DNA of 64,000 nucleotides. Source: an uncultured Porphyromonadaceae bacterium. Lineage in GTDB: Bacteria; Bacteroidota; Bacteroidia; Bacteroidales; Muribaculaceae. Location: assembly GCA_946553045.1 (NCBI GenBank), contig CAMNRO010000003.1, positions 62,001 through 126,000 on the forward strand, given 5' to 3'. The position numbers and the translations under genes were made by a program. Shown here one piece after another: positions 10,162-42,861 of this stretch. The notes beneath the pieces are model-generated. The model had not been told where the DNA came from, ran no database searches, and worked only from the letters and a program-made list of their open reading frames with translations. Each line of letters begins with the position of its first letter. Positions within the stretch are counted from its first letter, which is position 1.

Positions 10162-10752
10162 ATGGAACAACCCAGCTTAGAAAACATCAAGGCTGCTTAT
10201 GAAGCCGCCGATGAAAACGGAAAGAAGATGCTTCGCGCACTCTATCCCGACGTGTTTACCCAGCCTAAAAGGGCTGAAAGCAACCGTCCTGTTACCGAAC
10301 GAGTAAAAACCTTTGATGATGCTTGCCACGAACTTGGCGAGGCTCATCCGCTCGTACAGCACCTCAACCTCGTTGAGCATCACTTAGCTGACCACCTCGA
10401 CGGCATGGACGATGTTCTTGCCTACCTCAAAATGCGTATCGTAGTCGCCGCTCTTAATGAGGGCTGGACGCCTGATTGGGGCAACAAGGATGAATACAAG
10501 TGGTATCCGTGGTACTATATTCTCACCGAGGAAGAATACAACGACCTCGACGATGATGCCAAGTGCCGTGTCGTTGGTCGTGCGGGCAGCTCTGCGTATG
10601 CGTATGGCGGTCTCGTTTGCTCGTACGCGAGCTTCGTTTCTTCGAGCTCGGGCACGGGCGGCGGCGCGCGGCTCGCCTTCAAGTCCAAAGAGCTTGCTGT
10701 TTACGCTGGTCAACAGTTCGGCGAATTGTGGGCTTCTTTCCTCATCGGCTGA
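10162..10752 (+). CDS. DGR target protein 2: small protein with diversified C-type-lectin-like C-terminus
   Basis: 196 aa. The N-terminal ~55 residues form a helical module (LENIKAAYEAADENGKKML), then a helical middle, then an aromatic segment (YKWYPWYYILTEEEY). Residues 134-171 are encoded by variable repeat 2: conserved scaffold positions VGRAG, GGLV, VSS and GARLAF alternate with residues that differ from the template. Residues after the repeat (KSKELAVYAGQQFGELW) close the fold. There is no signal peptide or membrane segment, so the product is probably cytoplasmic or packaged. It is encoded among replication genes, 14 kb from the reverse transcriptase and on the other strand. The role is unknown; binding a variable ligand is the likely function of such a module. 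Confidence 0.88.
   Translation: MEQPSLENIKAAYEAADENGKKMLRALYPDVFTQPKRAESNRPVTERVKTFDDACHELGEAHPLVQHLNLVEHHLADHLDGMDDVLAYLKMRIVVAALNEGWTPDWGNKDEYKWYPWYYILTEEEYNDLDDDAKCRVVGRAGSSAYAYGGLVCSYASFVSSSSGTGGGARLAFKSKELAVYAGQQFGELWASFLIG
10563..10674 (+). repeat. DGR variable repeat 2 (VR2)
   Basis: This 112-bp stretch aligns without gaps to the template at 24689-24800 (minus sense). All 17 differences fall on template adenines (12 to G, 5 to T) and none on the 88 other positions. The 3' end is the shared GC block GGCGCGCGGCTC, the likely site where mutagenic copying starts (IMH-like). Beyond that block VR2 and TR diverge at once. Confidence 0.95.
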
Positions 10753-10766
10753 AATCATCATCACAG

Positions 10767-10794
10767 GGCCGGCGGCTCCGTCCGCCGGCCTTTT
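10767..10794 (+). terminator. GC hairpin/terminator downstream of VR2
   Basis: A perfect 9-bp stem, GGCCGGCGG/CCGCCGGCC, with a 6-base loop is followed by TTTT. It lies 14 bases after the target-2 stop codon and 92 bases past the end of VR2. It should terminate transcription. Because known DGR targets often need a hairpin downstream of the variable repeat, it could also serve retrohoming; that second role is inference. Confidence 0.8.
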
Positions 10795-10817: not shown

Positions 10818-11156
10818 ATGGAAAATAACGATAAACCACTGTCAACCGACCTCCCCAAAATCAGCGAGAAGGAATTTGACGAGGTTATCAAACTCGCCAT
10901 TAAGACATACGGCAAAGAGGCTCAGACTCAAATGTTGTTCGAGGAAATGGCCGAACTCCAAAACGCACTTTGTAAACTCGCTCGTAATCGTGGCACGGCC
11001 GACCAAGTCTGCGAAGAGATTGCTGACGTAATGATTATGTGCTTACAAATGGCTCAAATCTATGGTTCAAAGCGAGTAGAACAGTGGGCGAATAGAAAAA
11101 TGCTGCGATTGAAAGACCGCCTCAAACATGATACCTCAACTGAAGCGCAGGGCTAA
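10818..11156 (+). CDS. MazG-like nucleotide pyrophosphohydrolase
   Basis: 112 aa, all helical. MLFEEMAELQNALCKLARN and VCEEIADVMIMCLQMA give the paired acidic EExxE...ExxD helices that bind magnesium in the MazG/all-alpha NTP pyrophosphatase fold. It would hydrolyse (d)NTPs or the alarmone-type nucleotides that accumulate in infected cells. First gene after the hairpin that follows the DGR target. Confidence 0.8.
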   Translation: MENNDKPLSTDLPKISEKEFDEVIKLAIKTYGKEAQTQMLFEEMAELQNALCKLARNRGTADQVCEEIADVMIMCLQMAQIYGSKRVEQWANRKMLRLKDRLKHDTSTEAQG

Positions 11157-11316
11157 CTTGCTCTACCGGCTGCGCCGACACGGAATAACCGCCAACACCA
11201 AAGAGCGGATTATCTTCATTCCTTATGGGGATAATCCGTGGCGGTTTCCGCAGGTGCGCCGCCTCAACCAAGAGTATTATTTCATATTCAATTCATCATC
11301 ACATGAGCAAAATTAA
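11128..11316 (+). CDS. small basic protein, 62 aa
   Basis: It overlaps the end of the MazG-like gene and the start of the methyltransferase. The product is basic (LKRRANLLYRLRRHGITANTKERIIFIPYG) and reads like a small globular protein rather than a shadow. Similar short proteins are common in Bacteroidales phage replication clusters. Function unknown. Confidence 0.5.
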   Translation: MIPQLKRRANLLYRLRRHGITANTKERIIFIPYGDNPWRFPQVRRLNQEYYFIFNSSSHEQN

Positions 11317-12994
11317 ACTCCTATACATAGACCTTTTTTGTGGTGCCGGTGGAACATCAACGGGCGTTAATTCTGCAAGAATTGACGGCGAACAGTGCGC
11401 TGAGGTAATAGCATGTGTAAATCACGATGCAAAGGCAATCGCATCCCACGCTTCAAACCACCCTGACGCGCTCCACTTCACCGAAGACATAAGAACACTT
11501 GAATTGTCGCCGCTTATTTCTCACGTCAATAAACGCCGAACTGATTATCCTGAAGCATTAGTTGTGCTATGGGCATCGCTTGAATGTACGAATTTCAGCA
11601 AAGCGAAAGGCGGTCAGCCGCGCGATGCAGACAGCCGGACGCTTGCAGAGCATCTATTCCGATACATCGAAGCTCTCGACCCCGATTATATTCAGATTGA
11701 GAATGTCGAAGAATTTATGTCGTGGGGAGATATTGATGAGAACGGCAAACCAATTTCACGCGATAAAGGCCGTGCATATATGCGTTGGGTTGGCAAAGTA
11801 AAGAGTTTCGGCTATAATTTTGAATATCGCATACTCAATGCCGCTGATTACGGGGCCTACACATCGCGCAAAAGATTTTTCGGCATCTTTGCACGACATT
11901 CATTGCCGATAGTCTTTCCTGAGCCGACACACAGCAAGAATGGAGAAACAGGATTATTCGGCTGCATGAAGAAATGGAAGCCGGTGTGTGAAGTGCTGGA
12001 CTTTGAAGATGAGGGCCGGTCTATCTTCCGCGATAAGCCGCTATCTGAAAAGACACTGACGCGCATCTATGCCGGGCTGATTAAGTTTGTCGCAGGCGGT
12101 AAGAAATCATTCCTGGTTAAATATAACTCCGTAAATCAGAAGACCGGCAAATACGTTCCTCCGAGCGTTGATGAACCAAGCCCGACCATAGCAACGCAAG
12201 GGCGGCTTGCCCTTGGTTCCGTGGCTTTTCTTTCAAAACAATTCAGCGGTGCGCCGGATGATAAGAACATAACAGTTGACGGCCCTGCCGGAACAATCAC
12301 GACAATAGACCACCACGCATTTGTATCAGTACATTATGGCAACGGCTTCAATACGTCAGTTGAAGTACCAGCCGCAACGCTCACAACGCATGATAGAATG
12401 GCTCTTGTGCAGACTAATTTTCTTGATATGCAATACGGCAGCAGCAAGCCGTCTTCAGTGGAATCAGTTGCCGGAACTGTAACAACCAATCCGAAGCATC
12501 ATCTTATAACAGTGAAACCGTGGCTCATGGATACCAATTTTGCAAATGTTGGAAGCTCTATTGATGAACCCTCGCGAGTTATCACAGCGAATAGGAAACA
12601 TCACTATCTGATGAATCCTCAGTTTACATCTTCCGGCGGCTCAGTCGATTCTCCGTGCTTTACCCTGATAGCTCGAATGGATAAAATGCCGCCATATCTC
12701 ATTGCAACTGAATCCGGGCAAATCGCTATTGAAATCTACGAATCAGACAGCCCGATGACGGTCAAGATTAAAGAGTTTATGGCACTCTACGGTATCGTTG
12801 ACATCAAAATGCGTATGCTCAAAATTCAGGAGCTGAAACTGATTATGGGCTTCCCTGAAGATTACGTGCTGATTGGCACACAAGCAGACCAAAAGAAGTT
12901 TATCGGCAACGCCGTAGAAGTAACAATCGCAAGAAAAATGTGTGAAGCACTTTGTTCAAAATTGGTTGATAACATAAAAATCAAGAAAGGTTAA
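11303..12994 (+). CDS. C5-cytosine DNA methyltransferase
   Basis: Start at ATG 11303 (MSKIKLLYIDLFCGAGGT). The longer track frame adds 26 residues that look like shadow. Motifs present: I DLFCGAGGT, IV with the catalytic cysteine in SLECTNFS (instead of the usual PPCQ), VI QIENV, VIII SRKRFFG, and IX-X GFPEDY...FIGNAVE. The central target-recognition region (about residues 280-470) is built of about six repeats of a D-x-P...T-I-T/A...H-H pattern. It methylates cytosine, probably to protect phage DNA from restriction. No matching endonuclease is nearby, so it is an orphan enzyme. Confidence 0.9.
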   Translation: MSKIKLLYIDLFCGAGGTSTGVNSARIDGEQCAEVIACVNHDAKAIASHASNHPDALHFTEDIRTLELSPLISHVNKRRTDYPEALVVLWASLECTNFSKAKGGQPRDADSRTLAEHLFRYIEALDPDYIQIENVEEFMSWGDIDENGKPISRDKGRAYMRWVGKVKSFGYNFEYRILNAADYGAYTSRKRFFGIFARHSLPIVFPEPTHSKNGETGLFGCMKKWKPVCEVLDFEDEGRSIFRDKPLSEKTLTRIYAGLIKFVAGGKKSFLVKYNSVNQKTGKYVPPSVDEPSPTIATQGRLALGSVAFLSKQFSGAPDDKNITVDGPAGTITTIDHHAFVSVHYGNGFNTSVEVPAATLTTHDRMALVQTNFLDMQYGSSKPSSVESVAGTVTTNPKHHLITVKPWLMDTNFANVGSSIDEPSRVITANRKHHYLMNPQFTSSGGSVDSPCFTLIARMDKMPPYLIATESGQIAIEIYESDSPMTVKIKEFMALYGIVDIKMRMLKIQELKLIMGFPEDYVLIGTQADQKKFIGNAVEVTIARKMCEALCSKLVDNIKIKKG

Positions 12995-24531: not shown

Positions 24532-24688
24532 AAGGCCTTCAGGCGCTTCAGTTATGTTCCGGCTTTCTTCCTTGCGGAGAGGGTTGCCGAGGCTCAAGTC
24601 CCTCGCAGATTGCGTCGCCCAACTCGTGAGCTTTGCAGGGTCATACGATTATATAGTCCAAAGGGGCATTTGATTTGCGCATTAATGT

Positions 24689-24800
24689 GAGCCGCGCGCC
24701 GTTGTTCGTGTTCGAGTTCGAAGAAACGTTGTTCGCGTTCGAGTAAACGAGACCGCCATTCGCATTCGCAGAGTTGTTCGCACGACCAACGACACGGCAC
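24689..24800 (-). repeat. DGR template repeat (TR)
   Basis: 112 bp read on the minus strand. It has 24 adenines, 22 of them in eleven AAC/AAT codons when read in the target frame, plus one each in TAC and ACG. It ends in GGCGCGCGGCTC, shared exactly with both variable repeats. It lies between the fibre gene and the RT gene in the same orientation, the usual VR-TR-RT order. The 68-aa ORF across it is a by-product of the repeat, not a gene. Confidence 0.95.
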
Positions 24801-24914
24801 CGGGGACTTTCTACCTTTTTCGCCTACGCTTTCGCGTGACGTATTACGTTAAACTTTTAGTTACTTATCTCTGGGTAATGACCCCGACCGCTTGACGCGG
24901 CCGGGGAATAATAG
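24801..24914 (-). other. spacer between fibre gene and TR
   Basis: No gene. On the minus strand it holds a GC hairpin just past the fibre stop codon (24882-24906), then an A/T-rich stretch with a small ACGC-GAAA-GCGT hairpin (24826-24837), then a purine-rich run into the TR. The TR transcript may begin here or run on from the fibre gene. I see no clear promoter box. Confidence 0.5.
24882..24906 (-). other. GC hairpin downstream of VR1
   Basis: On the minus strand CCCCGGCCGC and GCGGTCGGGG pair over 10 bp with one G-U and a 5-base loop. It begins 8 bases after the fibre stop codon and about 62 bases past the end of VR1. No T-run follows, so it is a poor terminator. A role as the target-side DGR hairpin is more likely, by analogy with known DGRs. 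Confidence 0.7.
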
Positions 24915-27900
24915 TTATGTTGCTTCATTTTCGTCCTCATCGTCAAAGATGATTTCTCCACTGAAGGCGAGCCGCGCGCCGACGTACGTGTACGAGTGCG
25001 AAGAAACGTAGCTCGCGACCGAGTAAACGAGACCGCCATGCGCAACCGCAGAGCCGCCCGCACGACCAACAGCACGGCACTTAGCATGGGTATACCAAGC
25101 TCCGTCGGAATAGTTCTTATTCCATGCAGAGTTGTCACTCGTCATTTTGGCCGGAACGTAATCCATGAAGCGGCCGTAGCGCACTCGACCTATACAATAG
25201 CCACTCTGCGACGATATGTTTACGCCCTGAACCTCACGCTCGGTATCGGTCTGCCTGTTGTAGATATGCCAACGTGCGTCAACGGGATAAGAGCTGTCGC
25301 CGTCAGTCGGATACTTGTCTGCTTTCCATTTCTTGAACGAAGGAACATTGACAGCAACGTGCGCCATCCACTCGTAGTTACAAGCCACGAAGTTTTGAAT
25401 ACCAAACATAAGGTTGCCTACACCCGAAGCTGTGTTTACGAGTGTACGGTTACCCCATGCGTTGATGTTCTTGCCGTTGATTGTTTGTGCGCCACAAGTG
25501 TAACCGGCACCGCAACCACGGCCACATATCGCCTGAATATCGCGGTTGCCGACAAGCTCCATGATTATGTTGGCAAGGTCTTTCGACTGTTCGTAGCTGA
25601 TACTGTGGAAGCCCTTGCCTCGCATTTCACACATATTGATGAAGTCGAGATATGTGCGGTGCATTCCTGTCGGTGCGTTCAGATTGGTTACGTTGCCCTC
25701 TGCGTCATACGTCCATGCCGATGAGCTTCCCGATGCACCGTCGCCGACTTGCGCTTTTGCGCCGGAGATTGAACGGGGTCGGCCGAGTGCGTCAATGCTC
25801 AAGCCGTAGATGCCTACAAGGCTCTGCTTTGCGAACACCCAATCAGGTTCAATAGCTTCAATGGCCGCGCTGTCGACAGCGATTGCTTCCTGTGCGTCGC
25901 TGCCGCTCTGCGATGTGAACATGAACGTGACTGCGCCGGCCGGCACGTCGGTGAAGATATAATCTTCTCCGGCGATGAAGTCAAACTGCGAATTGCTCAC
26001 GGCCATTTTGAAGATTGATATGATTTTACCGCTCGCGTCGAGGAATACACAGCCCAGGTCTTCATTGTTGATACCCGGCCAGCGTACTTGCTTCATGCCC
26101 TGTACGTCGATTTGGTAGACGTTCATGTTGGCGTTGAGGCTGGTGGTCGGAGTATCTCCTACCGACATTGCCGAAACAACGAGGGCGGCATTGGCTTCTA
26201 CAAGTAGGTTAGTGAGCTTGCTTCGGTTGATTTTCTCCCATGTGGCAATAGGACGGTCTTTGCAGATAGAACGGAAACCATATTTTTCTTGGTTCTTGTA
26301 GTCGTTCACGCCCTTATACCAATGGTTAGGTATCGTCTTGAAGAAGTCGTAGCCCATGCCGGAGCTATCCGTAAGGTCGACGCTCGTACCGTCGGCGAGG
26401 AGGTTGTAATCCTCGTTGCCGAGCTTGACGCAGTGCATTACATTGTTCACAAAGTTGCCGCGACATGGCTTGCTCAATTTCTCCAAAGCGGCGAAGTGGC
26501 CGCTCGGTACATAGTCGTTGCCGAATTTGTAACCGGTCTTGTTGTCAAGATTGGTTATGTTCTCACATTCATTCTCAAGGTCGGAATATACGACCATTGA
26601 ATACTGCGAGTTATGGAGGGTTAACTGAGGGAAGTATGAGGCGAAGCCATTGAGAGTATCTTCCTCAATCAAATCTTCCATAATCCAACGACCCGTCAAG
26701 CCTGAGCAGCGTCCTGTTTCCTCGTAGGCTGCGCCGGTGGAGTCGAGGCCGATTGCACCACTGCGTTGCAGGGCGGTGAGGATTGACGACGGTGCTGTGA
26801 TGTTCACGTTAGGTAGTCGGATATAGCGAATATTCGATGATGTAACGAGGCCGTTAATCAGCGTCATGGGGTCAATGTTCGGGCAGTTGTCAAGCATTAG
26901 ACGACTTACATTAGCCATACTTGCGATTGTAAGGCCACCGGGGTACGTCAGGGCTGGCAAGTTCACGAGGTCGAGGCGTGTTACAGTGCCGGGCAGCTCA
27001 AGGGTGTTGATAGGCGACGTTTCTGCTACCTGAAATTCGCTCAACTGTGTGCCACCGGCCAACAGTTGCTCCAATCGCGGACACTTGGAAGCGTCAACAC
27101 TTGTTGCGAGGGTGTTGCGAATATCAAGCACTTGCAGGAACGGAAGCTCCGACAGTGCAAACTGCGTGAGCGGATTGTAGCCGATAGTGTACTGCTTGTA
27201 GTTCTCGCCGCCGACGATTATCTTCTCGGCAAGTTTCATCACGGAGAAGTCGAAGTTATCCGACAGCGATACGTCGACAAATTCTATCTCCCTGATGCGG
27301 TCAGCCTGATAGATATACAGGAGTGCGCCCTGCTGGTGCGAGAAGTTTCTAAAGATGTATTCCTCGCCTTCTTCAAGGTACACAGCACCGTCGGCCGACA
27401 GTGAGCCGGACGAGTCATTGCCCATGCCGAAGTAACCGCTCTTGGCTGCGATTATGCGGATTGCAGCGTTATCACCACAGGCAATACGGCCTGATAGCAC
27501 TCCCGTAAAGAAGCCGCCTGTCTTATAGAAGCCGTCGCGGAAACGCCAACGCTGTTCGATGAATTGAGCGATAGCGGCGAGGCCGAGGCCTTGAAGCGCG
27601 TAGAAATATAGTGCGTCCGAGGTCGCGGTGTACTGTATATATTTGCGGATGCCGTCGTAGCTCGATACTACTTTCGGCCATTTTTTGAGGTGTTGGTCGA
27701 TGAAGTAGTATTTAGCACCTTCAGGAGAGAACGGATTGATTGTTCTGCCGTCAGGCAAAGTTACCTGAACGGCTCGCATAGCGGCAACCGTCTTTTGGTA
27801 TTCAATCTCTCCGCCATTGTCGTCAACCTTGATTGTTTTGGCCGCGAAGTAACCGCGCCAAGGTACTGCGCCCCAACCGGCCCACGGATTGACATAGCCG

Positions 27901-30900
27901 GTGGCTTCGTCACTCGGTTTGGTCGGGTCGGCTTCGGGCTGGCCTGTGTCGCCGCCGTCGTTGTCCGACATATACGCGCCGTCGATGTCATACTTTTTGT
28001 TGGCATTCTGCACTACGGGCTGACGTGTCAACACGAAATCACAGTTGAAGCCGGTGGGCGATGTCGCTCCCTCTTTGTCGGGGTCATAAACGCCGCCGAC
28101 AACATTATGCCCTTCAAGCAAGAAGTGCATGGGCTGGTGGTTCTTCGATAGCGAGTCAAACTCGTTTTGATAGTCAGCGTCGGCAAGATACACCATGTCG
28201 GCGCGGACGTTGCGGAATTTGTAGGCGTTGTTGCTCCAACGCTCCACCCATTCATCCTGATGCTTTGCATAGTCGCAGTAGTCGCATAGACGTAGCTGAA
28301 CATACAGCTCGAACGGAACGACACGACCCATAGCCAAATCGGCCTGTAATGCGTCGTTGTCAACCATACATTCAAAGTAGTATGTCCATGCAGGAAATTC
28401 TTCGCCTGTAACGCCGGAACTTGATTTATCAATGAGCTTCTGCACCCACTTTGCGATGTTCTTTGACGGCCTCATCATATCTTCGATTGAAGACACTCCT
28501 TGCCACCAATCAAAGCCCTCATAGGTCAGCAACTCGAAGCCGCCAACAGGGTTAAGAACGTCGCCGGTTATAGTGCGTGTTTTTGCTCCTGTCCATATCC
28601 ATGAGCCGGTGGTGTTCTTCCACTCGCCGCCTTGATAGCGCATGAAACGATAGTTACGGCTGCAATACGGATAGAGAAGATACGGCATACCCGTGTCGAG
28701 TCCTTCCATAGTTTTGAAGCGGGCTTCCATTTGGTCAAGCGTTTCTCCCGGATTACCACATACCCAGTTGAAGACTTCATCTTGGAAATTAAGACAGCCC
28801 TTGTTATAGCCGGGTACGTCTTTGAAGCCGAGTGCTACCTGTTCGCCCTTGTCCTCTTTCCAATTACCTTTGGCTTCAAACCACACGTTTTGCAGGGTGT
28901 CGCTGTTGGAACGGAACACGGCGATTGGGTGATTGGCCGTCGAGTGGTTCATCTGCAAACCGCTCAAATGCACGTCGCCTTTATCCCATGTGCCGTCATA
29001 GCAACGCTGCGCCGGTGTAAGGAAGTCGTCGCCGAGGGCGCGATATGTCGCGTTTACCATATCGCACACTGAACAGTCGTTGGCACCGCCAGAGTTGGAG
29101 TAATCGACTTTGATTGTGATAACGTCGACCGGGATAGAGTTCTCGGTAACGCGGATTTTCTTCATCGCGAAAAGCGCATAGGTTGTCAGTGCATCCTCGT
29201 TGGTGTAGTCGGGATAGAGCGGTATAACCTCGGTTGCTTTCTTGATGTAGATACGGTAGTTCTTCTTGGGACGCTTGGCCGATGTCGTACCCTGACGGCG
29301 TATTTCACAGTTGACAGCCTTGAACGACCGCCACGGCATTGTCGGGTGGTAGTAGTAGACAGTCATTTTGAATTTGTCCGATGTCGAAGTACCGTCGTCG
29401 TCTACACCCTTGCCGAAGTCGAATTGATTGTGAACATCGTCGTCTGCCACAAAGATACAGTAAGGCATACCTTGTGTGAACAGGAGCGGTGCGCTTGGGC
29501 GCATTGAGGTTGTCCCCTCGGCATTCTGCGACACAAGAACGTTCTCGCGGTTAAACTCTGCTATCATCGCGTCGGTGTCGGTCTGCTTTACGATGTAATT
29601 GCGGAATGCCTGGCTCCAATCGTAGTAGCTTTGATACGCCAGCATATAGTAGAGATATAGGTCGCCCTCGGTGCCGTCCATTGTTACATTCTTCATGTTC
29701 AACAGGCGACTGCCGCCGGGGTTATAGCCTATCGAGCCGACAAGCTCACCGTCGAGGTACATACGCATGGTGGCCCACTCCGTACCATTGCGGTTAATAG
29801 AGATTGTTGACGGCTCTACAACAACTGCTACGGTGTGCATTTCTCCGCAAGGGAAACGACGCTCGATAAGAGCCGGGGAGCCGGACTTGCATTGTAAGCC
29901 GACTTTGTTGCCCTTGATAAAGAAGCCTGCGCCGTTGTCGGGGTCGACACATTTCAGGAGCATAGCGTCTGCGTCCTTGATATTGTTGGTCGCAAACATT
30001 GTCTGATACACCATGCCGGTTGCCTCGATTGTACGCGAGGAGAAAGGCGCATGATTTTTCTCTGCCGTAACATTCTCTGCTATTCGCAGTGCGTTTTGAC
30101 CGAGATAATTCACAAAGCCGTTGCTACTCCAATTCGCGCCGTGAACGACTATGCGATAGTTGCCGACAACAATCTCGTGCGACGGCTCGGAGTTGCTGCG
30201 GCCGGAGAAGTCGAAGTGATAAAGTGCGCCGTCCATGAGCGCGGCGTCAATGGCTGAACCTTTCACAGTCAGGGTTACAGTACCCGATGTGGCAAGAACA
30301 TTGTCGCCGTCGTAGGCTTCTGCTTTGATGCTGATTTTATCGCTTCCGTCGCTCTGGTAACCTGAAACTTGCATTTCGGCTGTTTCGATTTGGTTTGCGC
30401 CAAGCTCGTAACGGCCGAGCACTCGGTCGTCAGCTTTCAGTGCGACGTTGGTTGTCAGCATTTGAGGATTGGGGTTGTACGCTGCGACTTCAACCTTTAC
30501 GCGGTCGTAAAGGCGCACAGTGCCGTCGCCCGTGTCATTGTAGCGCAGTGCAACAACAGGCACACTGCTGTTGGGGTCGATACACATCACAGCGGTGTAA
30601 ATGGTGTTGCCGGTTACTCCTGAAGCAACGTCTTTGCCGTGTATGCGCACAGGATATGCGCCGTGCTGCATTCTCTCACCGCCGCCGAAAAGGTTGGTCG
30701 GGTTGAACTGCGCACTGTTGCTGTATGCGTCGAAGTGCGTGGGGGGTGTTGCTGTGAGCGGCTTCCATGCACCTTCCCACCAAATTTCAACGAATGCCTG
30801 AATACCTTTCTCGCTGACGTTTTGAGGGAATTTGTAAAGCGGCACATTGACAGCTCGGTTGCTGCCATAGGGAATTACATAATCCGATGTGTAGTTAAGC

Positions 30901-33455
30901 ACTTGTGTACTCTCGACAGTCGCGTCTACAGCCGTAACCGTTATGAAGCGATAGCCTACATGGTCGGTGTCGTCGGTGGCTTCCAAACGGAAACGACGAG
31001 AACCGGCACCGTCAAACAAGCCGGAGAAAGGTATGTCAAAGTTGTATTCGTCCTCGTCCGATGAACGGGTGTTTACAGTCCACTCGCGGATAACTACGTT
31101 GGTGTCGCGGTCGATGAGTTTCAGAGACACAATCGAGTTGAGTTGCTCGGTTGACCCTAACTGCGTCACGGAACGGATACAGGCATGGCCGATGATGTCT
31201 TTGCCGACAGCACCGTAAAGAGGCGACTCCTGAAATTTGATATTGACGATTGTTCCTGATACCTCACCGCCACCGCCTTGCGACGCAAAGAATGTAATGG
31301 CTTCGCCAATTTCTTCTTCGGCTTCATTGAGCGGCTGAATGGTAACTGTACCGTCCTCCTGTGTTACGCGATACTTTGTCGGGATATGCTTGTATGCACC
31401 GCCGGTAGAAAGTGCGTCTTTGCCGCCGGCCGCAGGGTCGTCTTTAGTTTCGACTTCGGTTTGACCGCCGCCGCCAAATGGTATCCAAGGTTTCAGGTCT
31501 GCCGGATTGATGTCGGCGATTTCTCGCGTGAACTGATAGGCTTCCCAAACAGGTGCGCCCTTGCTGTCCTTTTCGGCTGTCTTGTAGGTCAGCACAACGC
31601 CACTCTTGAAATACTTGATACCACTCTCGGCCTCTTTGTCCTGTACGGCTTTAATGGCTGTGCTCAATGTATATTCGGTGTCGCCGCAAACATCGTTGAC
31701 ATTGACGGTGTTTCCGATGTTGTTGCCGTTCACTCCGAAGTCAGTCCATGCGCTTTCTTCGGTAAAAGAGTCGTCGCCATTCCACTGTTTGCTTTCCCAG
31801 CCATTCTTGCCACGGAAAGAAACAACGATACCGGGAATATGGAAGATTGTGCCAAACTGTGTTTCAAGGAGCTTGGAAACTTCGCCGATTGTGTAGGTAG
31901 CAGTGTAATCAAGAAGCTGATTGGCATTGATGAAAGTGCGAGGCTTCTTTACATTCTCAACCTCATTATTGAGTTTCTTGTCAGTGATGAATACCTCTAT
32001 CTCCTCGTTTTCTATACGATAGAGATAGTTATTGCAACGGTATAGATTATAGGCGTTGGCTTGTAGGTCACTGTTGTACTTTTCCTCGGCTATGCCGTAG
32101 AAGTCAGACCCGCCAAATGCGCGGAAATACCAACCGCCGTCAGGGCTGGGGCAAAGATATATACCGACTGTCGGCTCTGAACCGTTGCCGTTCCAGACAC
32201 CGTCAAAAGGTAGAATACTGATATTCTCGATTATGTTGCGGTTCTCGTTGGCCTTAATGTTCAGGTCTCTAACATCATTCTGCAACTGTACGCCTGCATC
32301 GCCCGGAAAGGCGGTGTTTGCAGTATAGCCAAGAGCAAGGTCGTTGCCGATTATCACAAGCTCGTAGCCACTCCAACGGTAGGTTTTATTATCCGAAGTG
32401 CAGATATGTACCTTTCCTGCTTCGGGGGTTGCTCCGTTATCTGTCGCTGTACCGAAGCTATCTTTGTCGCCCCATACTGCATAGTATTTGAATTGGGATT
32501 TGATAAGCTCAACCCTGCCATTGGCTTCTTCCCAATAATCCGTTAAACCCGGACGCAATAGGCTTTCGGCAAGTTGCGGTGTTTCGGCTTGAGGTGTGAT
32601 TATAGAAGCCTCACTGTTTATGCTGCGAAGTGGACGGATTACGTTGCCCCATTCAATAGTTGATGAGGGCGAAAGAATAGACACGGCGAGAAGATAGCAG
32701 TTGGTGTCCTTGTTATAGACAACCATACAGCCTACATTCGTTGACTTGAGAGTTGTTGTACTGTCTTGGAGCGTGATGTCTTCGACCATAGCATTAAACT
32801 CTATCACGTCATCAACATAGCCGGGTAGGTTTGCCGCCGGTACTTTGGCGTTAGCGTCAAGAGGCGCAAATCCGTTGGCTTTGCCCTTACTGCTGTTAAT
32901 ATTGTCAACGCCTGACTGTGCGGAGGCTGCGTCAGCCACACCTTTGTTGGCTTGTGTCTGCGCGGCTTCAACGGCTTTTTGAAGATTGTTGAGCTGGTCG
33001 CCCTGCGTCGTTTGGCCGGAGCGTAAGCTGCGGATGTCTTCCTTATTTTGGTTGACTTCGATTTTGACGGCTTCAAGGTCGCCTGTCATTTCTTCCACAG
33101 CTTCCATGTATTCCGACGAGTCGACCGTGGGGTTACCCGCAAGTTTAGGTGTGCCGTCGGCATTGGTTTGACCTACCCAAGCACCGCCGTCGGCCATGTA
33201 GACCTGAGCTGGCAGGGTGTCGCCCACCAACGCCCACCAACCCTCGTGTGGATTGGGGTATGCTTCACGCAATTGTACCGCCGTCTTGAATAGACCCTTG
33301 TTAGGTCCTTTGACATTGGGAGCGTCAAGCCAACCCTCCACTTTCAGGTTATGACCGATAGTAGCAGAGCCACGGACGGTAGCCTTACCGCCTACGCTGA
33401 CATTACGCCCTACCGCAACATCACCGTCGATTTGTTTTGTTGGGATTGAACTCAT
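24915..33455 (-). CDS. 2846-aa tail fibre / receptor-binding protein, DGR target 1
   Basis: N-terminal ~110 residues (SVGGKATVRGSATIGHNLKV, then EGWWALVGDTLPAQVYMADG) are typical of Bacteroidetes phage tail fibres. A coiled-coil stalk at about 115-190 follows. A LamG/concanavalin-like lectin domain lies near 1070-1290, a short leucine-rich-like stretch near 2090-2250, and a C-terminal C-type-lectin-like domain over the last ~200 residues. Residues 2792-2829 are encoded by VR1. It presumably sits at the tail tip and binds the host surface, with the DGR changing specificity. Start overlaps the preceding gene (TAATG). VR1 lies 17 residues from the C-terminus. Confidence 0.9.
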   Translation of the reverse strand: MSSIPTKQIDGDVAVGRNVSVGGKATVRGSATIGHNLKVEGWLDAPNVKGPNKGLFKTAVQLREAYPNPHEGWWALVGDTLPAQVYMADGGAWVGQTNADGTPKLAGNPTVDSSEYMEAVEEMTGDLEAVKIEVNQNKEDIRSLRSGQTTQGDQLNNLQKAVEAAQTQANKGVADAASAQSGVDNINSSKGKANGFAPLDANAKVPAANLPGYVDDVIEFNAMVEDITLQDSTTTLKSTNVGCMVVYNKDTNCYLLAVSILSPSSTIEWGNVIRPLRSINSEASIITPQAETPQLAESLLRPGLTDYWEEANGRVELIKSQFKYYAVWGDKDSFGTATDNGATPEAGKVHICTSDNKTYRWSGYELVIIGNDLALGYTANTAFPGDAGVQLQNDVRDLNIKANENRNIIENISILPFDGVWNGNGSEPTVGIYLCPSPDGGWYFRAFGGSDFYGIAEEKYNSDLQANAYNLYRCNNYLYRIENEEIEVFITDKKLNNEVENVKKPRTFINANQLLDYTATYTIGEVSKLLETQFGTIFHIPGIVVSFRGKNGWESKQWNGDDSFTEESAWTDFGVNGNNIGNTVNVNDVCGDTEYTLSTAIKAVQDKEAESGIKYFKSGVVLTYKTAEKDSKGAPVWEAYQFTREIADINPADLKPWIPFGGGGQTEVETKDDPAAGGKDALSTGGAYKHIPTKYRVTQEDGTVTIQPLNEAEEEIGEAITFFASQGGGGEVSGTIVNIKFQESPLYGAVGKDIIGHACIRSVTQLGSTEQLNSIVSLKLIDRDTNVVIREWTVNTRSSDEDEYNFDIPFSGLFDGAGSRRFRLEATDDTDHVGYRFITVTAVDATVESTQVLNYTSDYVIPYGSNRAVNVPLYKFPQNVSEKGIQAFVEIWWEGAWKPLTATPPTHFDAYSNSAQFNPTNLFGGGERMQHGAYPVRIHGKDVASGVTGNTIYTAVMCIDPNSSVPVVALRYNDTGDGTVRLYDRVKVEVAAYNPNPQMLTTNVALKADDRVLGRYELGANQIETAEMQVSGYQSDGSDKISIKAEAYDGDNVLATSGTVTLTVKGSAIDAALMDGALYHFDFSGRSNSEPSHEIVVGNYRIVVHGANWSSNGFVNYLGQNALRIAENVTAEKNHAPFSSRTIEATGMVYQTMFATNNIKDADAMLLKCVDPDNGAGFFIKGNKVGLQCKSGSPALIERRFPCGEMHTVAVVVEPSTISINRNGTEWATMRMYLDGELVGSIGYNPGGSRLLNMKNVTMDGTEGDLYLYYMLAYQSYYDWSQAFRNYIVKQTDTDAMIAEFNRENVLVSQNAEGTTSMRPSAPLLFTQGMPYCIFVADDDVHNQFDFGKGVDDDGTSTSDKFKMTVYYYHPTMPWRSFKAVNCEIRRQGTTSAKRPKKNYRIYIKKATEVIPLYPDYTNEDALTTYALFAMKKIRVTENSIPVDVITIKVDYSNSGGANDCSVCDMVNATYRALGDDFLTPAQRCYDGTWDKGDVHLSGLQMNHSTANHPIAVFRSNSDTLQNVWFEAKGNWKEDKGEQVALGFKDVPGYNKGCLNFQDEVFNWVCGNPGETLDQMEARFKTMEGLDTGMPYLLYPYCSRNYRFMRYQGGEWKNTTGSWIWTGAKTRTITGDVLNPVGGFELLTYEGFDWWQGVSSIEDMMRPSKNIAKWVQKLIDKSSSGVTGEEFPAWTYYFECMVDNDALQADLAMGRVVPFELYVQLRLCDYCDYAKHQDEWVERWSNNAYKFRNVRADMVYLADADYQNEFDSLSKNHQPMHFLLEGHNVVGGVYDPDKEGATSPTGFNCDFVLTRQPVVQNANKKYDIDGAYMSDNDGGDTGQPEADPTKPSDEATGYVNPWAGWGAVPWRGYFAAKTIKVDDNGGEIEYQKTVAAMRAVQVTLPDGRTINPFSPEGAKYYFIDQHLKKWPKVVSSYDGIRKYIQYTATSDALYFYALQGLGLAAIAQFIEQRWRFRDGFYKTGGFFTGVLSGRIACGDNAAIRIIAAKSGYFGMGNDSSGSLSADGAVYLEEGEEYIFRNFSHQQGALLYIYQADRIREIEFVDVSLSDNFDFSVMKLAEKIIVGGENYKQYTIGYNPLTQFALSELPFLQVLDIRNTLATSVDASKCPRLEQLLAGGTQLSEFQVAETSPINTLELPGTVTRLDLVNLPALTYPGGLTIASMANVSRLMLDNCPNIDPMTLINGLVTSSNIRYIRLPNVNITAPSSILTALQRSGAIGLDSTGAAYEETGRCSGLTGRWIMEDLIEEDTLNGFASYFPQLTLHNSQYSMVVYSDLENECENITNLDNKTGYKFGNDYVPSGHFAALEKLSKPCRGNFVNNVMHCVKLGNEDYNLLADGTSVDLTDSSGMGYDFFKTIPNHWYKGVNDYKNQEKYGFRSICKDRPIATWEKINRSKLTNLLVEANAALVVSAMSVGDTPTTSLNANMNVYQIDVQGMKQVRWPGINNEDLGCVFLDASGKIISIFKMAVSNSQFDFIAGEDYIFTDVPAGAVTFMFTSQSGSDAQEAIAVDSAAIEAIEPDWVFAKQSLVGIYGLSIDALGRPRSISGAKAQVGDGASGSSSAWTYDAEGNVTNLNAPTGMHRTYLDFINMCEMRGKGFHSISYEQSKDLANIIMELVGNRDIQAICGRGCGAGYTCGAQTINGKNINAWGNRTLVNTASGVGNLMFGIQNFVACNYEWMAHVAVNVPSFKKWKADKYPTDGDSSYPVDARWHIYNRQTDTEREVQGVNISSQSGYCIGRVRYGRFMDYVPAKMTSDNSAWNKNYSDGAWYTHAKCRAVGRAGGSAVAHGGLVYSVASYVSSHSYTYVGARLAFSGEIIFDDEDENEAT
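24969..25080 (-). repeat. DGR variable repeat 1 (VR1)
   Basis: 112 bp, gapless match to the TR. 16 of 24 adenines differ (8 to G, 6 to T, 2 to C). Only two non-adenine positions differ, adjacent bases CT for TC at positions 9-10, at the 5' edge. Ends in the same GGCGCGCGGCTC block as the TR, after which the sequences diverge. Confidence 0.95.
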
Positions 33456-34813: not shown

Positions 34814-36265
34814 TTACACAGTGGCTGCGCCGCCGGTCGGGGGCTGTGCGAGACGCATACGGGCGTGAGCCTTGGCGTAACGCAGATAGAGGCAGGCAAC
34901 TTCCTGAATTACTACTGCGTCAGTGTTGCGAATACCGGCAGTCTTCAGGTCGAGGACATTACGGGCCCACGATACATGAGTCTTCTTCGAAAGATATTCG
35001 GGATCCATTGCGAAGCCGCAATCGCTCATACCGTTTGCGTCGAAAAGCTCGTGGTGGATAGTCAGCACTTCGCCGAAGTCAGTATCCCACGATTTGAATT
35101 TCAAGTTCCATACTTCTACGGTGTCTTTCAGACGGAATTTCTCACTCTTGATTTTCGAGAATGCCGACAACATATCGGAACCGCAGAAAAGAATTTTGCG
35201 CTTGTTGCCGATACCCGTGCCGACAAAGAGGTCTTTAGTGATGTCCACAAGGTTGTCGTCGGTAATTACGGCACATTTGGCGGTGTCGTCCCATACGCCT
35301 ACCTCGATGTCCTTACCGGCCATGTACCAAATGCCGCCGGTAAACCATGTGTTCATGCCCTCTTTGGCAACGTGTTTGATTACATTCTTTACGCCGAAAA
35401 GATAGGTGTTTTCCTGAGAGAGTCGCATATCGTAGATACCGTCTTCCTCAATGTCCGAGAAACTCCAATTTACTTCTTTGGCGGCAATCTTGTCAAAGGT
35501 CGACTGTTCTACCTGAATCATGAAGTTCTGACAATACTGCACTTCGGGCATAGGAATGTTGTTGAAGCGGCCAGTCTGCACATCAAGCTCTCCACAGGCT
35601 TTACCCATGCGCACGAGTGTAGTGCCGCTGGGAATGGCGGGTACGAGTGTGGCATAGCCGGTGGTCGCGTCCTTGTCGCCGTTCACGGCATAAACCGTTG
35701 GCATATTGGTGTCGGTACTCTTACCGCACACACACAGCACGAGGTCAGGCACATTGTCGCTGTCGGTGGGATAGGCAACACCCTTGTCGTCATACAAGCC
35801 TTTCACGCCAACAACGCGGATTGTGTCATCGAGTGTGAACATATTGGCATCGTCGACGGGCAGGGTAATCGACGCGCCGGAAGTCTGCGCCGTTACGGCT
35901 TTATTGGTCTTACATGAGATAGGTCGAGTGCCGACGCTGTAGTATTTGACTTCAAACGACTTGCACGACGAGGATTTTGCGTAGCGTGAAATCTGGTCGA
36001 TAGGCGTTGCCATAGGACGGATTTTGATGATACGCTTGTCGATGTCCTGCATGTAGAAGTTGGGGTCGCCGTCCTCGCGCCCCTGCGTCTCGGTCGCGAT
36101 ACCGTCAGTGCCACCTGTGCCGTCTGCACCGGCATTTACTTTACCTGCGTCGGGGAGGTCGCTGGCTGCGGCCATGTAAACCCCGGAGCTTGCCCCCGCA
36201 ACGAGGGCAATCATACTCAGCATGAAACTGAGCAGAAAACGAGTTGTCTTTTTAACTGTTTCCAT
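34814..36265 (-). CDS. major capsid protein (HK97-like, tentative)
   Basis: 483 aa. Position directly after a scaffold-like gene and before a strong terminator, size, and segments such as DIDKRIIKIRPMATPIDQISRY (N-arm) and NKRKILFCGSDMLSAF fit a DUF5309-like HK97-type capsid protein. Odd: the annotated N-terminus has a signal-peptide-like hydrophobic run (RFLLSFMLSMIALVAGASSG). A later start at MAAASDLPDAGKV would remove it, or maturation could. Confidence 0.7.
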   Translation of the reverse strand: METVKKTTRFLLSFMLSMIALVAGASSGVYMAAASDLPDAGKVNAGADGTGGTDGIATETQGREDGDPNFYMQDIDKRIIKIRPMATPIDQISRYAKSSSCKSFEVKYYSVGTRPISCKTNKAVTAQTSGASITLPVDDANMFTLDDTIRVVGVKGLYDDKGVAYPTDSDNVPDLVLCVCGKSTDTNMPTVYAVNGDKDATTGYATLVPAIPSGTTLVRMGKACGELDVQTGRFNNIPMPEVQYCQNFMIQVEQSTFDKIAAKEVNWSFSDIEEDGIYDMRLSQENTYLFGVKNVIKHVAKEGMNTWFTGGIWYMAGKDIEVGVWDDTAKCAVITDDNLVDITKDLFVGTGIGNKRKILFCGSDMLSAFSKIKSEKFRLKDTVEVWNLKFKSWDTDFGEVLTIHHELFDANGMSDCGFAMDPEYLSKKTHVSWARNVLDLKTAGIRNTDAVVIQEVACLYLRYAKAHARMRLAQPPTGGAATV

Positions 36266-37666: not shown

Positions 37667-38124
37667 TCGCAGCTTACGTCCTTGCGTCAGCACTTATATA
37701 TGTGCCGGATTGGAACGTAGTCGGTGCTACTGCTGACTGCGGCATACTTCAGCGGCTTGGCTATTCTTTCTTCCATGCGTCATTGCTACATGCGTCAATA
37801 AATGCTTGGTGTTTCATTTCTATACTTTTCCTCTACAACGTGACATGGTGGCGTATGGCCGTAGCTTATGCAATAGCCGTAGCTGCTCCTGACTTTGTTT
37901 TGTCAACAATGCCTACTGTTGGACTTTCGGCAGTTTGTTTTGCCTTGCTCGGCTCGATCGCTTTTCAGGCGAAACGCAAAATATATTACAATGGCTGTAT
38001 GGCATTGTATATCGCTCTCGGTTTTATGTTTCCACTCGTAAATGGGTGGCTTCATTTTTACAGTTATGTAGCCGGGCTGTTTGTCGGCTTCCTTAATATG
38101 CCAATACCATGCAGAAGGAAGTAA
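37627..38124 (+). CDS. rhomboid-like membrane protein, 165 aa
   Basis: Five to six spans. HASLLHASINAWCFISILFL corresponds to the rhomboid HxxxN-type helix, TVGLSAVCFALLGS to the helix with the catalytic serine (normally GxSG), and HFYSYVAGLFVGF to the helix with the catalytic histidine. At the usual histidine position (HxxG) there is tyrosine, and the nearest histidine is 4 residues earlier. It is either a divergent intramembrane protease or an inactive pseudo-rhomboid. It overlaps both terminase-related neighbours. Confidence 0.65.
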   Translation: MVCGKIEKTAGLLIAAYVLASALIYVPDWNVVGATADCGILQRLGYSFFHASLLHASINAWCFISILFLYNVTWWRMAVAYAIAVAAPDFVLSTMPTVGLSAVCFALLGSIAFQAKRKIYYNGCMALYIALGFMFPLVNGWLHFYSYVAGLFVGFLNMPIPCRRK

Positions 38125-40217
38125 CACAAATACTCAAAATCAATCAGGAGCGGTTGGATGAAATTCACGCTCCGTTTAATCCTATAACCGGCAAAGGGTC
38201 GGTCGGCACTCGCTTCGAGTGTGTGATTGAAGACTTCCCGATAAAACGCCAATGGCTACCGGAAGCAATGCGCAAAACCCCACTTGTGCGACGGCTTCTG
38301 GCCGCTGGCTCTATCGAGACGTTCTTATGTGATACTCTCGGCGTAGAATATGACGATGAAGAAGAATATGAGGCTGACCGCCTGAAAGTCGTTGAACAGT
38401 TTGTGCGTATACGTTCCCGACATGACTTTCCGTTTTGGGCAGCAACGTATGTTTGGATTAAGAATAAGGGCGGCGGCGAGGATGTGCTGTTTCGCCTTAC
38501 AAGACCACAGCGTCGTTTTGTAGAGCGTCTTGAAGAAAAACGTCTTGCCGGTAAGCCCATTCGTCTTATCCTTTTGAAAGCTCGACAGTGGGGCGGCTCT
38601 ACAACGTCGCAGCTGTATATGGCATGGTTGCAGCTCGTTCATCGAGTCGGCCTCAACTCGCTAATTATCGCACACCAAACATCAGGTTCGGACGAAATCC
38701 GTGATATGTTCAATCGTATGCTCGACCGATACCCGGTGGAAATGCTCTATAAGCTGGGGGCTGACTATGACGACAACGAACCTAAACTTGTCGGGGTCGG
38801 TATGTCGGGCCTTATTCATGCCGTACCACAGCGCAACTGCAAAATCAAGATTGGCACAGCTAAAAATCCCGACTCGTGTCGTGGCGGAGACTACAATCTC
38901 GTTCACTGTTCCGAGGTCGGTATATGGGAGAAGACCGAAAAGAAATCGCCTGAAGATATTGTGCGCTCGGCCTGTTCGGGTGTACTTTATAAGCCCTATA
39001 CCATGATTGTTTATGAGTCAACCGCCAATGGTACGGGCAATTTCTTTCAGGTTGAATACGACGCAGCCAAGAAAGGAAAGTCGCAATTTGAAGCAATGTT
39101 TGTCTCGTGGTTCGATATTGAGCAATATTCACTCGATTTTGAAAGCGAAGCCGAAAAACAAGAGTTTGCCGGGTGGCTGTATGACAATCGGGAGAATGGC
39201 AATGCCACTTCGGAGCGTGAGGAGTGCGGCCGTTATCTTTGGTGGTTGTGGGAAAAGGGCGCGACGCTTGAGGCTATAAATTGGTATATCCGTGAACGTG
39301 CCAAGTCTAATGAACACGCTATTATGGCTTCGGAATATCCGTCCGATGATGTAGAGGCATTCGTTCATTCCGGCACTCGTGTATTCGACAAATACCGTGT
39401 CGAGGCGTTGAAGTCTACATGCAAGCCACCCTCTCAAATTGGCGACGTATATGCTGACTTCGACGAGGGCAAAAAGGCGTTACAAAATTTGCGCTTCCGT
39501 GAGGATCGGCAGGGCTTGTTGTGGGTATGGGCGCAACCCGAAATAGACCCGGAAGAAAAAGTGACTAATCGCTACCTTACTGTTGTCGATGTCGGCGGCC
39601 GCTCTCATAAGGCCGACTGGTCGGTAATCGTTGTCTTCGACCGCCTGTTTATGGCCGAGGGTGGCAAGCCTGTTGTTGTGGCTCAATGGTATGGTCATAT
39701 CGACATAGACCTCTTGGCATGGAAAGCTGCGCAGATTGCAGCTTACTATGATAATTCATTGCTCGTTATTGAGAGCAATACTCTCGAAACGCACGATAAA
39801 GAGCGTAATGTCGACGGCGACCAATCACAATTTATTCTTAATCAGGTCAAGGACGTTTACCCAAACCTTTATGAGCGTAAGCAACCCGAAGAAGCGATTG
39901 TCGAAGGTGCGCCTAAAAGATACGGCTTCCATACCAACATCGCCACAAAGCCGATGATTATCTCAACACTCGTTAAGGTTATTCGTGAGGCTATGTATGT
40001 CGAGCGCGACGAGCGTTGTCTTGCAGAGTATAACTTCTACGAGAAGCGTAAAAACGGCAGTTTCGGAGCTATCGTAGGCAAGCATGACGACTTGTTGATG
40101 ACACGCGCCATTGGCTTGCACATCTGCTTCTACGAAATGGATATGCCTAAAATCATACCTGTGCAAAAGAAATATAACCGTGGCCGTCGGAAACCAATAT
40201 CTGCCGCCACTTTCTAA
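38109..40217 (+). CDS. terL: terminase large subunit
   Basis: 702 aa. ATPase part: Walker A-like KARQWGGSTTSQ near residue 160 and Walker B NLVHCSEVGIWE near 270. Nuclease part (RNase H fold): TVVDVGGRSHKADWSV near 500, LLVIESNTLE near 555 and GKHDDLLMTRA near 660, giving the acidic metal-binding set. It drives DNA into the procapsid and cuts the concatemer. It overlaps the rhomboid-like gene by 16 bases. Confidence 0.92.
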   Translation: MQKEVTQILKINQERLDEIHAPFNPITGKGSVGTRFECVIEDFPIKRQWLPEAMRKTPLVRRLLAAGSIETFLCDTLGVEYDDEEEYEADRLKVVEQFVRIRSRHDFPFWAATYVWIKNKGGGEDVLFRLTRPQRRFVERLEEKRLAGKPIRLILLKARQWGGSTTSQLYMAWLQLVHRVGLNSLIIAHQTSGSDEIRDMFNRMLDRYPVEMLYKLGADYDDNEPKLVGVGMSGLIHAVPQRNCKIKIGTAKNPDSCRGGDYNLVHCSEVGIWEKTEKKSPEDIVRSACSGVLYKPYTMIVYESTANGTGNFFQVEYDAAKKGKSQFEAMFVSWFDIEQYSLDFESEAEKQEFAGWLYDNRENGNATSEREECGRYLWWLWEKGATLEAINWYIRERAKSNEHAIMASEYPSDDVEAFVHSGTRVFDKYRVEALKSTCKPPSQIGDVYADFDEGKKALQNLRFREDRQGLLWVWAQPEIDPEEKVTNRYLTVVDVGGRSHKADWSVIVVFDRLFMAEGGKPVVVAQWYGHIDIDLLAWKAAQIAAYYDNSLLVIESNTLETHDKERNVDGDQSQFILNQVKDVYPNLYERKQPEEAIVEGAPKRYGFHTNIATKPMIISTLVKVIREAMYVERDERCLAEYNFYEKRKNGSFGAIVGKHDDLLMTRAIGLHICFYEMDMPKIIPVQKKYNRGRRKPISAATF

Positions 40218-40887: not shown

Positions 40888-42861
40888 TTACGCCGCCATG
40901 GGTTGGGGGTTCATAAGCATTTGACGTGCGGCCTGAACATTCTGCATATTTGCTCCGGCCTGTACTTGCTGTTGTAACTGCGGCGACATGGCTTCCGGCA
41001 CCTGACCCTGTTCGAGTTGTTCCTTTTGACTGCGGATAGACTGCAATAGGTCGTCGGCAAATGGGAAGTCGCCGTGCTCCAGAAGCTGCTCGACCGAAAT
41101 TGCCTGTGCTTGCCACAACTGCATGAGTATGTCGTTGGCCATTTGTCGGAATGCCGGGGTGTTGGTGCTTTCGACAATAGAGAGGTCGAAGTCGACGTCG
41201 CGTATAGTTTTGGGGTCGTATTCAACCCATGCGTTTTTACCAACAATATTGAATATGCGCTTTGTGTCATAGAACTGTTGCATATTCTTCACGTCCTTTA
41301 TCGCGCCGTCCTTGACAAAGTAGCTGAAGCTGTCGAGCAAGTCAAGCAACGATGTTGTGGCGTTTTGCGTCTGCTGGTTGTAGAGTGCTGCGCTTTGATT
41401 GGCATATCCGGGCTTACCCTGCAATGCGCCGTTCACACCTGAAATGTCTTCAAAGAATTTCAGCTGTAGGTTCAGCAATTCAGTAATACCAATTTGCGTC
41501 GAGTTGTTGGCAATCTGCTGTGGAACGGCAACACCCGGTTTGGGCTTATAGTAGACAATACCGTCAAACTTGCCCCATTCTTCGGCAATATCGTCCATGC
41601 TCATATTGTCAGGCTCACAGCCCTCAGGGAACAGGAGTACGCCTTTTGCGCTTGCCCTCATGATGAAGTCGTAGAGCGTGATGAGGCGGTTGGTGTATCG
41701 TTGTTGGTCGATTACGTCTGCAACAAAACTGTGTATCTCGCCGTCGATGAAAGGGTATGCCTTGAACACATAGGGATGGCTCTTGTGTTCGTATGGTGTT
41801 TCGCCCTCTTTCAGTATGTGGCCGAATGGAGTCAGGTAATAATAGTACCAATAGTGGTCTATCATCCACGTTGCTTTTATGAGCGGAATTTCATCGTCAG
41901 GCATACCGGCCGCACGACCTCGCATAAGACGCTCTTTGTTTATAGAGCCGACCATTTCTTCGTAGTCCTCAACGTCGATTTTGTAGACGTCGCCATTGTT
42001 CAGGTCGTGGCAACGGTAACGGGGCTTGGCTTCCTTACGCCACACTTCTATAACCCTGCAACGTGTGGGGTCGCTCGTAAACAGGAAATCGAAATTTTCA
42101 AGACGTGAGTATCCGAACCGATAGGCGTAGTTGGCGATGTATTGTTTGTTGTGAGCAAAGGTGTATATTTCTCTGAAGCGTCGGTAGTCTTCCGGGCTTT
42201 CGGCAAACTGAGCACATAGCGTCTCAAAAGAAACATCGTGTACTTCGCCGAGACAAGATACATCCCAGCCTCGGAAATCGCGCATATTGTTGTCGATAAA
42301 GAAATTGTTGGGATTAACATAGTCAGTCCAACAGTCCATTTTCTCGTTACGCCAACTATACGACTTCCGATGTACGATTAAACCGCCAATCAAAAATTCT
42401 TCCATGGTTCGGGCATAAACCTCAGTCATGCGGTTTAGCTGCATATTGCACTGCAAGATTGTGGTCATTGTCTCGCCAAGTTTCTGCTCGTCGCGGTCTC
42501 GTGCATAACACGTCGGCTCTTTAGCCTGACTTCGGTATACACCCAGCACATTCCGCACAAGGCGGCGTATTAGGTTATTCTTCAGCGGAACGTTGCCCTG
42601 CTTGCCGATGTATTCTTCCTCGGTCATGGTGCAACCGTCCACCTCGATGATGTCTTTCCATTGGTCGCCGTAGCAATAGCGTTTATTGCGCTGGCGATCG
42701 CGACGGAATTGGTCCATGTTGTTCCAATGGTGTTGTGCTTCCATAAGCACGTCAAACGCTCTCCTGTCGCCTCGCCGCTTTGATGTGGCAACAGTGTCCA
42801 TGTCGTCCTCAATCTCACGAGGACGGACACGGCTCATTCTATGTAGTTTGTCCTTTGCCAT
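40888..42861 (-). CDS. portal protein (P22-like)
   Basis: 657 aa, the length of P22-type portals. Features: helical DVLMEAQHHWNNMDQFRRDRQRNKRY start, LKNNLIRRLVRNVLGVYRSQ, EVWRKEAKPRY, QQRYTNRLITLYDFIMRASAKG, SGVNGALQGKPGYANQS (the tunnel-helix region), and a Gln-rich C-terminal barrel-like tail. It forms the dodecameric vertex through which DNA enters and leaves. Own promoter upstream. Confidence 0.88.
   Translation of the reverse strand: MAKDKLHRMSRVRPREIEDDMDTVATSKRRGDRRAFDVLMEAQHHWNNMDQFRRDRQRNKRYCYGDQWKDIIEVDGCTMTEEEYIGKQGNVPLKNNLIRRLVRNVLGVYRSQAKEPTCYARDRDEQKLGETMTTILQCNMQLNRMTEVYARTMEEFLIGGLIVHRKSYSWRNEKMDCWTDYVNPNNFFIDNNMRDFRGWDVSCLGEVHDVSFETLCAQFAESPEDYRRFREIYTFAHNKQYIANYAYRFGYSRLENFDFLFTSDPTRCRVIEVWRKEAKPRYRCHDLNNGDVYKIDVEDYEEMVGSINKERLMRGRAAGMPDDEIPLIKATWMIDHYWYYYYLTPFGHILKEGETPYEHKSHPYVFKAYPFIDGEIHSFVADVIDQQRYTNRLITLYDFIMRASAKGVLLFPEGCEPDNMSMDDIAEEWGKFDGIVYYKPKPGVAVPQQIANNSTQIGITELLNLQLKFFEDISGVNGALQGKPGYANQSAALYNQQTQNATTSLLDLLDSFSYFVKDGAIKDVKNMQQFYDTKRIFNIVGKNAWVEYDPKTIRDVDFDLSIVESTNTPAFRQMANDILMQLWQAQAISVEQLLEHGDFPFADDLLQSIRSQKEQLEQGQVPEAMSPQLQQQVQAGANMQNVQAARQMLMNPQPMAA

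Follow-up and report, generated by a model that had tools for sequence, protein, structure and literature searches.

The window, the 64,000-nucleotide stretch of DNA analysed here, comes from an uncultured Porphyromonadaceae bacterium of the gut, assigned to the Muribaculaceae, and harbours a prophage, which is integrated, since chromosomal genes are found on both of its flanks. Its layout is similar to that of the Bacteroides phages BS-TP4 and BKO1-TP3, with a capsid protein 80-81% identical, and the module that carries the giant tail-module gene also codes for a major capsid protein of the SU10 type, a portal and a terminase (Table 1). The 383 nt separating the stop codon of the tail gene from the start of the reverse transcriptase (RT) gene contain the template repeat (TR) of a DGR, while the 3' end of the tail gene itself harbours a variable repeat (VR1). 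A second one (VR2) is located in a small gene of the early region. A single very long ORF adjoins the portal gene, and its equivalent in BKO1-TP3 is annotated as DarB-like antirestriction.

Table 1. Features of the window and of the related loci mentioned in the text (positions refer to the window unless a contig is named).
Feature	Position	Strand	Remarks
Target 2, small protein of 196 aa, phrog_11581 (unknown function)	10162-10752	+	Intact ORF, VR2 in its 3' part
VR2, 117 bp	10563-10679 (112-bp core 10563-10674)	+	14 kb from the cassette
GC-rich hairpin GGCCGGCGG-CTCCGT-CCGCCGGCC	10767-10790	+	About 90 nt 3' of VR2
DGR-type RT, about 548 aa	22885-24531	-	GLRSSQ and YCDD; C-terminal extension of about 160 aa
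C-terminal extension of the RT, about 160 aa	22885-23400	-	No family match
Rfam RT-3 RNA (RF03068)	24533-24650	-	Between TR and RT start; 47.8 bits, gathering threshold 40.5
TR, 117 bp	24684-24800 (112-bp core 24689-24800)	-	A-rich copy; adenine differences 18/26 to VR1, 19/26 to VR2
GC-rich hairpin, one G-T pair	24882-24906	-	About 57 nt 3' of VR1; read from sequence
VR1	24964-25080 (112-bp core 24969-25080)	-	3' end of the giant tail-module gene
Target 1, giant tail-module protein of 2846 aa, phrog_14959 (unknown function)	24915-33455	-	Short match to a minor-tail-protein profile
SU10-type major capsid protein	34814-36265
Terminase	38109-40217
Portal	40888-42861
Single ORF of 5804 aa	42942-60356	-	Adjoins the portal gene
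Second RT of the source genome	G000:C11:26505-27116		Other contig
RT-3 RNA in relatives	L022:40783-40932; L019:25235-25403; L075:7380-7529; L080:5021-5173
RT and RT-3 of BKO1-TP3	L019:23818-25308		No TR/VR pair
Mu-type transposition proteins	L205, L231, L232		Neighbours of dedicated DGR
Polymerase and exonuclease	L209		Neighbours of dedicated DGR
Terminase	L235		Neighbour of dedicated DGR
Helicase/methylase	L240		Neighbours of dedicated DGR
Serine recombinase	L217		Neighbour of dedicated DGR
Two or three tandem phrog_11581-type targets	L205, L209, L217, L222, L226, L229, L231-L233, L235-L238, about position 10000		Directly before TR and RT
Two small-target copies, one TR	L240:1681-2208 and 10820-11347		Dyadobacter phage-like region; copies 9 kb apart

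The ungapped 112-bp alignment of the TR with VR1 shows changes at 16 of the 24 template adenines and at 2 of the 88 other positions, the latter forming one TC-to-CT dinucleotide at TR positions 9-10. In the frame of the target, the TR contains eleven AAC/AAT codons, and the differences alter the amino acid at 12 of 37 codons. In the 117-bp version of the repeats, 18 of 26 adenines and 2 of 91 other positions are changed (Fisher p = 3.8e-13). A preliminary description of this DNA had given the 112-bp counts and the number of AAC/AAT codons, which recomputation reproduced exactly, and had proposed a complete DGR with an SQ-motif RT and a tail target, together with past mutagenic retrohoming; the analysis supports each of these points. 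However, its interpretation omitted VR2, a target in a non-tail protein; the 'three 112-bp copies' that it mentioned are the TR, VR1 and VR2. A scan of the whole window with the 5 kb around the RT as query, mismatches being confined to adenines, returned only VR1 and VR2, and a search of the source genome yielded no fourth copy of the repeat. That genome codes for a second reverse transcriptase on another contig.

Compared with the TR, VR2 is changed at 17 of 24 adenines and at none of 88 other positions over 112 bp, and at 19 of 26 adenines and none of 91 other positions over 117 bp (p = 1.9e-16). VR1 and VR2 differ from each other at 17 positions, and therefore neither was recently copied from the other. 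Both are situated at the 3' end of intact ORFs. Shared sequence between repeats can come from duplication, and the three copies could in principle be duplicated domains that diverged via point mutation or gene conversion, with no DGR involved. Such an origin can practically be dismissed, given the restriction of the differences to adenines (p of about 1e-13 for VR1 and 1e-16 for VR2), the DGR-type RT adjoining the template, and the invariance of the template between relatives described below. Both VRs carry GGCTCGCCTTC where the TR has GGCTCACATTA, a difference compatible with an IMH/IMH* asymmetry at the 3' end of the repeats. GC-rich hairpins follow both VRs, with perfect equivalents 3' of VR1 in G051 and L010, and equivalents 3' of VR2 in L013, L015 and G051; they are candidates for a retrohoming cis element or a terminator.

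With regard to the RT, it scores above the cut-off for Pfam RVT_1 and matches the phrog_1423 reverse transcriptase profile (3e-62). The DGR-type SQ motif announced in the preliminary description was recovered as GLRSSQ, preceded by K and not by I, V or L as in (I/V/L)GxxxSQ, and the protein matches published phage DGR RTs, being 37-38% identical to those of hankyphage p00. Searching the PDB with it at E<=0.001 gave a single match, 8ub7 'Reverse transcriptase', which we take to be the BPP-1 enzyme. Antiviral DRT and retron assignments were rejected, as they produced partial matches only, under the curated NCBIfam cut-offs. With about 548 residues, the RT is longer than the average DGR RT of 378 residues (PMC3521204), and close relatives share the additional C-terminal stretch in conserved form. 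No Avd was recognised in the flanking ORFs tested, and one may speculate that the C-terminal extension could replace it.

The interval between the TR and the RT start contains a match to the Rfam family RT-3. This RNA is present directly before the RT in eight relatives, namely, L009, L010, L011, L056, L080, BT-TP2, L075 and BKO1-TP3, and in all but the last-named it is located within the TR-RT interval. Since RT-3 occupies this position in phage DGRs, it probably forms the structured 3' portion of their template RNA, which gives this orphan RNA family a likely role. In the window, the RT-3/TR spacer taken alone folded no better than shuffled sequences (z = +1.5), and the structure of this segment is thus that given by the Rfam match only. 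BKO1-TP3 possesses the RT and RT-3 without a TR/VR pair under the criteria used, and may represent a decayed DGR.

In the mechanism that we propose, the template RNA would be composed of the TR and the RT-3-type segment, and the phage RT would copy it with errors opposite adenines. The cDNA would then be substituted for homologous sequence at the 3' ends of both target genes, namely, VR1 of the giant tail-module gene next to the cassette, and VR2 of the small gene, which is located in the early region on the opposite strand, at a distance of 14 kb. The two targets were examined for recognisable folds. The preliminary description had placed VR1 in a C-type-lectin-like domain; this fold may be kept as a lead, no Pfam, PHROG or PDB sequence match having been obtained for it, and the AlphaFold model of the tail C-terminus, built with nine sequences, was unusable (pLDDT 38). 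The tail target may bind a host receptor, and its diversification may change receptor binding, as had also been predicted. The small protein matches the phrog_11581 profile over its full length (1.8e-61, residues 4-195), with conserved family residues flanking VR2, whereas Pfam, NCBIfam and PADLOC searches gave no match and revealed no recognised tail or defence domain. Its AlphaFold model has a helical N-terminal half, confident in the helices only, with pLDDT <50 at residues 135-168, across VR2. A Foldseek search with this model found no PDB match, and PDB sequence searches with the C-terminal ends of both targets gave no meaningful match. In the window, the gene is surrounded by those for a replisome organiser, a helicase loader, a helicase, a Dcm-type cytosine methylase and a MazG-like protein.

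Activity was addressed by comparing assemblies of related phages rather than reads of the source strain. Two metagenome phages of the window lineage share a backbone 92-95% identical. Between them, the TR differs at 0 of 33 adenines and 1 of 94 other positions, VR1 at 15 of 33 and 2 of 94, and VR2 at 22 of 33 and 1 of 94. As both VRs vary at adenines while the adenine sites of the TR are invariant, both targets have been diversified in these relatives. The preliminary description had suggested looking for variation of the VR restricted to adenines beside an invariant TR, and this pattern is found in these two related phage assemblies for VR1 and VR2 alike. L012 has diverged too far from the window for a population comparison of VR2. 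Another pair of two-target phages is 99.94% identical over 55,450 bp; of their 30 SNPs, 12 fall within VR1 and the other 18 where the alignment ends, and VR2 is identical. Given that, the alignment edge aside, this pair differs only in VR1, a DGR of the two-target kind is active, and VR1 can change without VR2 changing. At the level of sequence, the template, the RT, both VRs, the adenine specificity, the invariance of the template and, in relatives, the independent diversification of both repeats are established, and a single DGR very probably serves two targets in this integrated prophage.

Among 297 genomes of the host's family, 28 gave matches to the small protein, although some of these matches cover only a VR belonging to a tail gene; for the order, the count was 13 of 393 genomes. 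On 13 further contigs of the host's family, the small gene is paired with a TR of its own 13-44 kb away, with 0-1 non-adenine mismatches, and another VR adjoins that TR. Summed over these contigs and the window, 203 of 375 adenines and 2 of 1102 other positions are different, values that are descriptive, as the pairs were picked for few non-adenine mismatches and are thus partly conditioned, and as G057 and G130 are near-duplicates. The double pairing of one TR with the small gene and with a further VR also exists in the phages Versailles, BT-TP2 and BI-TP1, as well as in two relatives of the window phage that come from metagenomes. The TR sequences and RTs of these phages differ, and the variable end of the small gene therefore tracks the TR of its own phage. 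The close relative BS-TP4 has the tail target only, and a phage of this kind can thus do without the second one. For ten small genes, several of them on short contigs or partly fetched, no TR was found, and a degenerate core pattern of the repeat had no match among viral contigs.

Other Bacteroidota, as well as Ignavibacteria MAGs, contain loci in which between one and three members of the family directly precede a TR and an RT. In most of these dedicated loci, the TR has no VR outside the small genes within the fetched stretch (6-21 kb), the exceptions being L193, with a tail-type VR, and L220, with an extra unassigned copy. Their annotated neighbours are mostly phage genes (Table 1). Several loci carry the small targets in tandem, and in a Dyadobacter phage-like region one TR is accompanied by two distant copies. 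Judging by gene content, the dedicated DGRs speak for a small protein that is targeted on purpose and against its being part of a tail.

These data bear on whether VR2 matters to the phage. The system might be an ordinary tail DGR in which VR1 alone is relevant, VR2 being an accidental or relic target via the shared repeat; the adjacency of the tail gene to the cassette, the lack of a small target in BS-TP4, and the unchanged VR2 beside a changed VR1 in the 99.94% identical pair would all fit. We nevertheless regard this as improbable, in view of the intact ORF and conserved family residues around a VR2 free of non-adenine differences, the change of 22 of 33 adenines in VR2 between related phages, the retention of the same family as second target despite different TRs and RTs, and the compact phage DGRs for which no other target was detected. 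The small protein might otherwise belong to the virion or act as an adhesin, as a second receptor-binding or decoration protein, so that both targets would serve attachment. Those phage DGR targets that have been characterised have structural or adhesive roles, and the Versailles copy is annotated 'tail protein'. Yet the gene resides in replication or early modules, in many cases on the strand opposite to the structural genes or separated from them by tens of kb, and near transposition genes in Mu-like prophages, and the protein does not match structural-protein profiles, the shared VR aside, making a virion role rather unlikely.

The location of the gene, together with the remote second VRs reported beside counter-defence genes by two independent studies (PMC8008677, PMC12629997), favours instead an intracellular binder directed against host defence, and we tentatively propose that the small target acts in the cytoplasm as a hypervariable binder of host (defence) proteins. 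By extension, phrog_11581 could be a family of early proteins that are hypervariable inside the host, serving as evolvable binders matched to host anti-phage proteins or to those of competing phages, much as diversified tails are matched to receptors, and diversified in Bacteroidota phages either as the second target of a tail DGR or, in one to three copies, by a dedicated DGR; this picture is possible but somewhat short of probable.

DGRs with several VRs have long been known (PMC3521204, PMC6642488), and two-target DGRs of gut phages have been published (PMC8143477, PMC10743442, PMC8008677 and PMC12629997). The system of the window joins them, the two-target design itself being already known, and a non-structural second target was already proposed in 2021. 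Roux et al. pointed out that their own survey would miss remote targets (PMC8144416). In the phages of the Quimbyvirus/LoVEphage type (Benler et al. 2021, PMC8008677), one DGR likewise serves two C-terminal targets, one downstream of the tail fibres and the other on the opposite strand in a methyltransferase/tRNA-ligase neighbourhood. BI-TP1 combines this neighbourhood with a phrog_11581 target, whereas the phage type and the RT of the Quimbyvirus/LoVEphage type differ from those of the window; the accessible part of that report draws no link from the second target to a family common to other phages. In the inducible gut prophages with double-VR DGRs (Nature 2025, PMC12629997), the second VR is far from the RT, as in the window, and in four prophage species its vicinity includes counter-defence genes, for instance one for a DNA methyltransferase. 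The Tentaclin phages nd4/nd12 (PMC10743442) and the Bacuni phages (PMC8143477) are gut phages that also have two targets per TR, but, unlike those of the window, these targets have Ig domains or resemble fimbrial tips, and are considered adhesive. Hankyphage p00 is a transposable phage with a published DGR (Benler et al. 2018, PMC6199706); the small target has matches in eight phage records, none of which is p00. The system of Bordetella phage BPP-1 (Mtd/Avd/bRT) shares with the window the TR, the VR, the RT and the adenine-specific change, but has one target and an Avd, as against two targets and no recognised Avd. In the openly searchable literature, we did not see it stated that a single family provides the second target in different phages and is the sole detected target of dedicated phage DGRs.

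The usual explanation of phage DGRs is that they switch tails. One protein family occurring across several phage types, and in phage DGRs without another detected target, provides a defined object for asking whether DGRs diversify intracellular proteins. As BT-TP2, BI-TP1 and Versailles are sequenced temperate phages with known hosts and carry the small target, direct testing is possible. The targeting of the small protein in many otherwise different Bacteroidota phages suggests that diversification takes place inside the infected cell as well as in tails.
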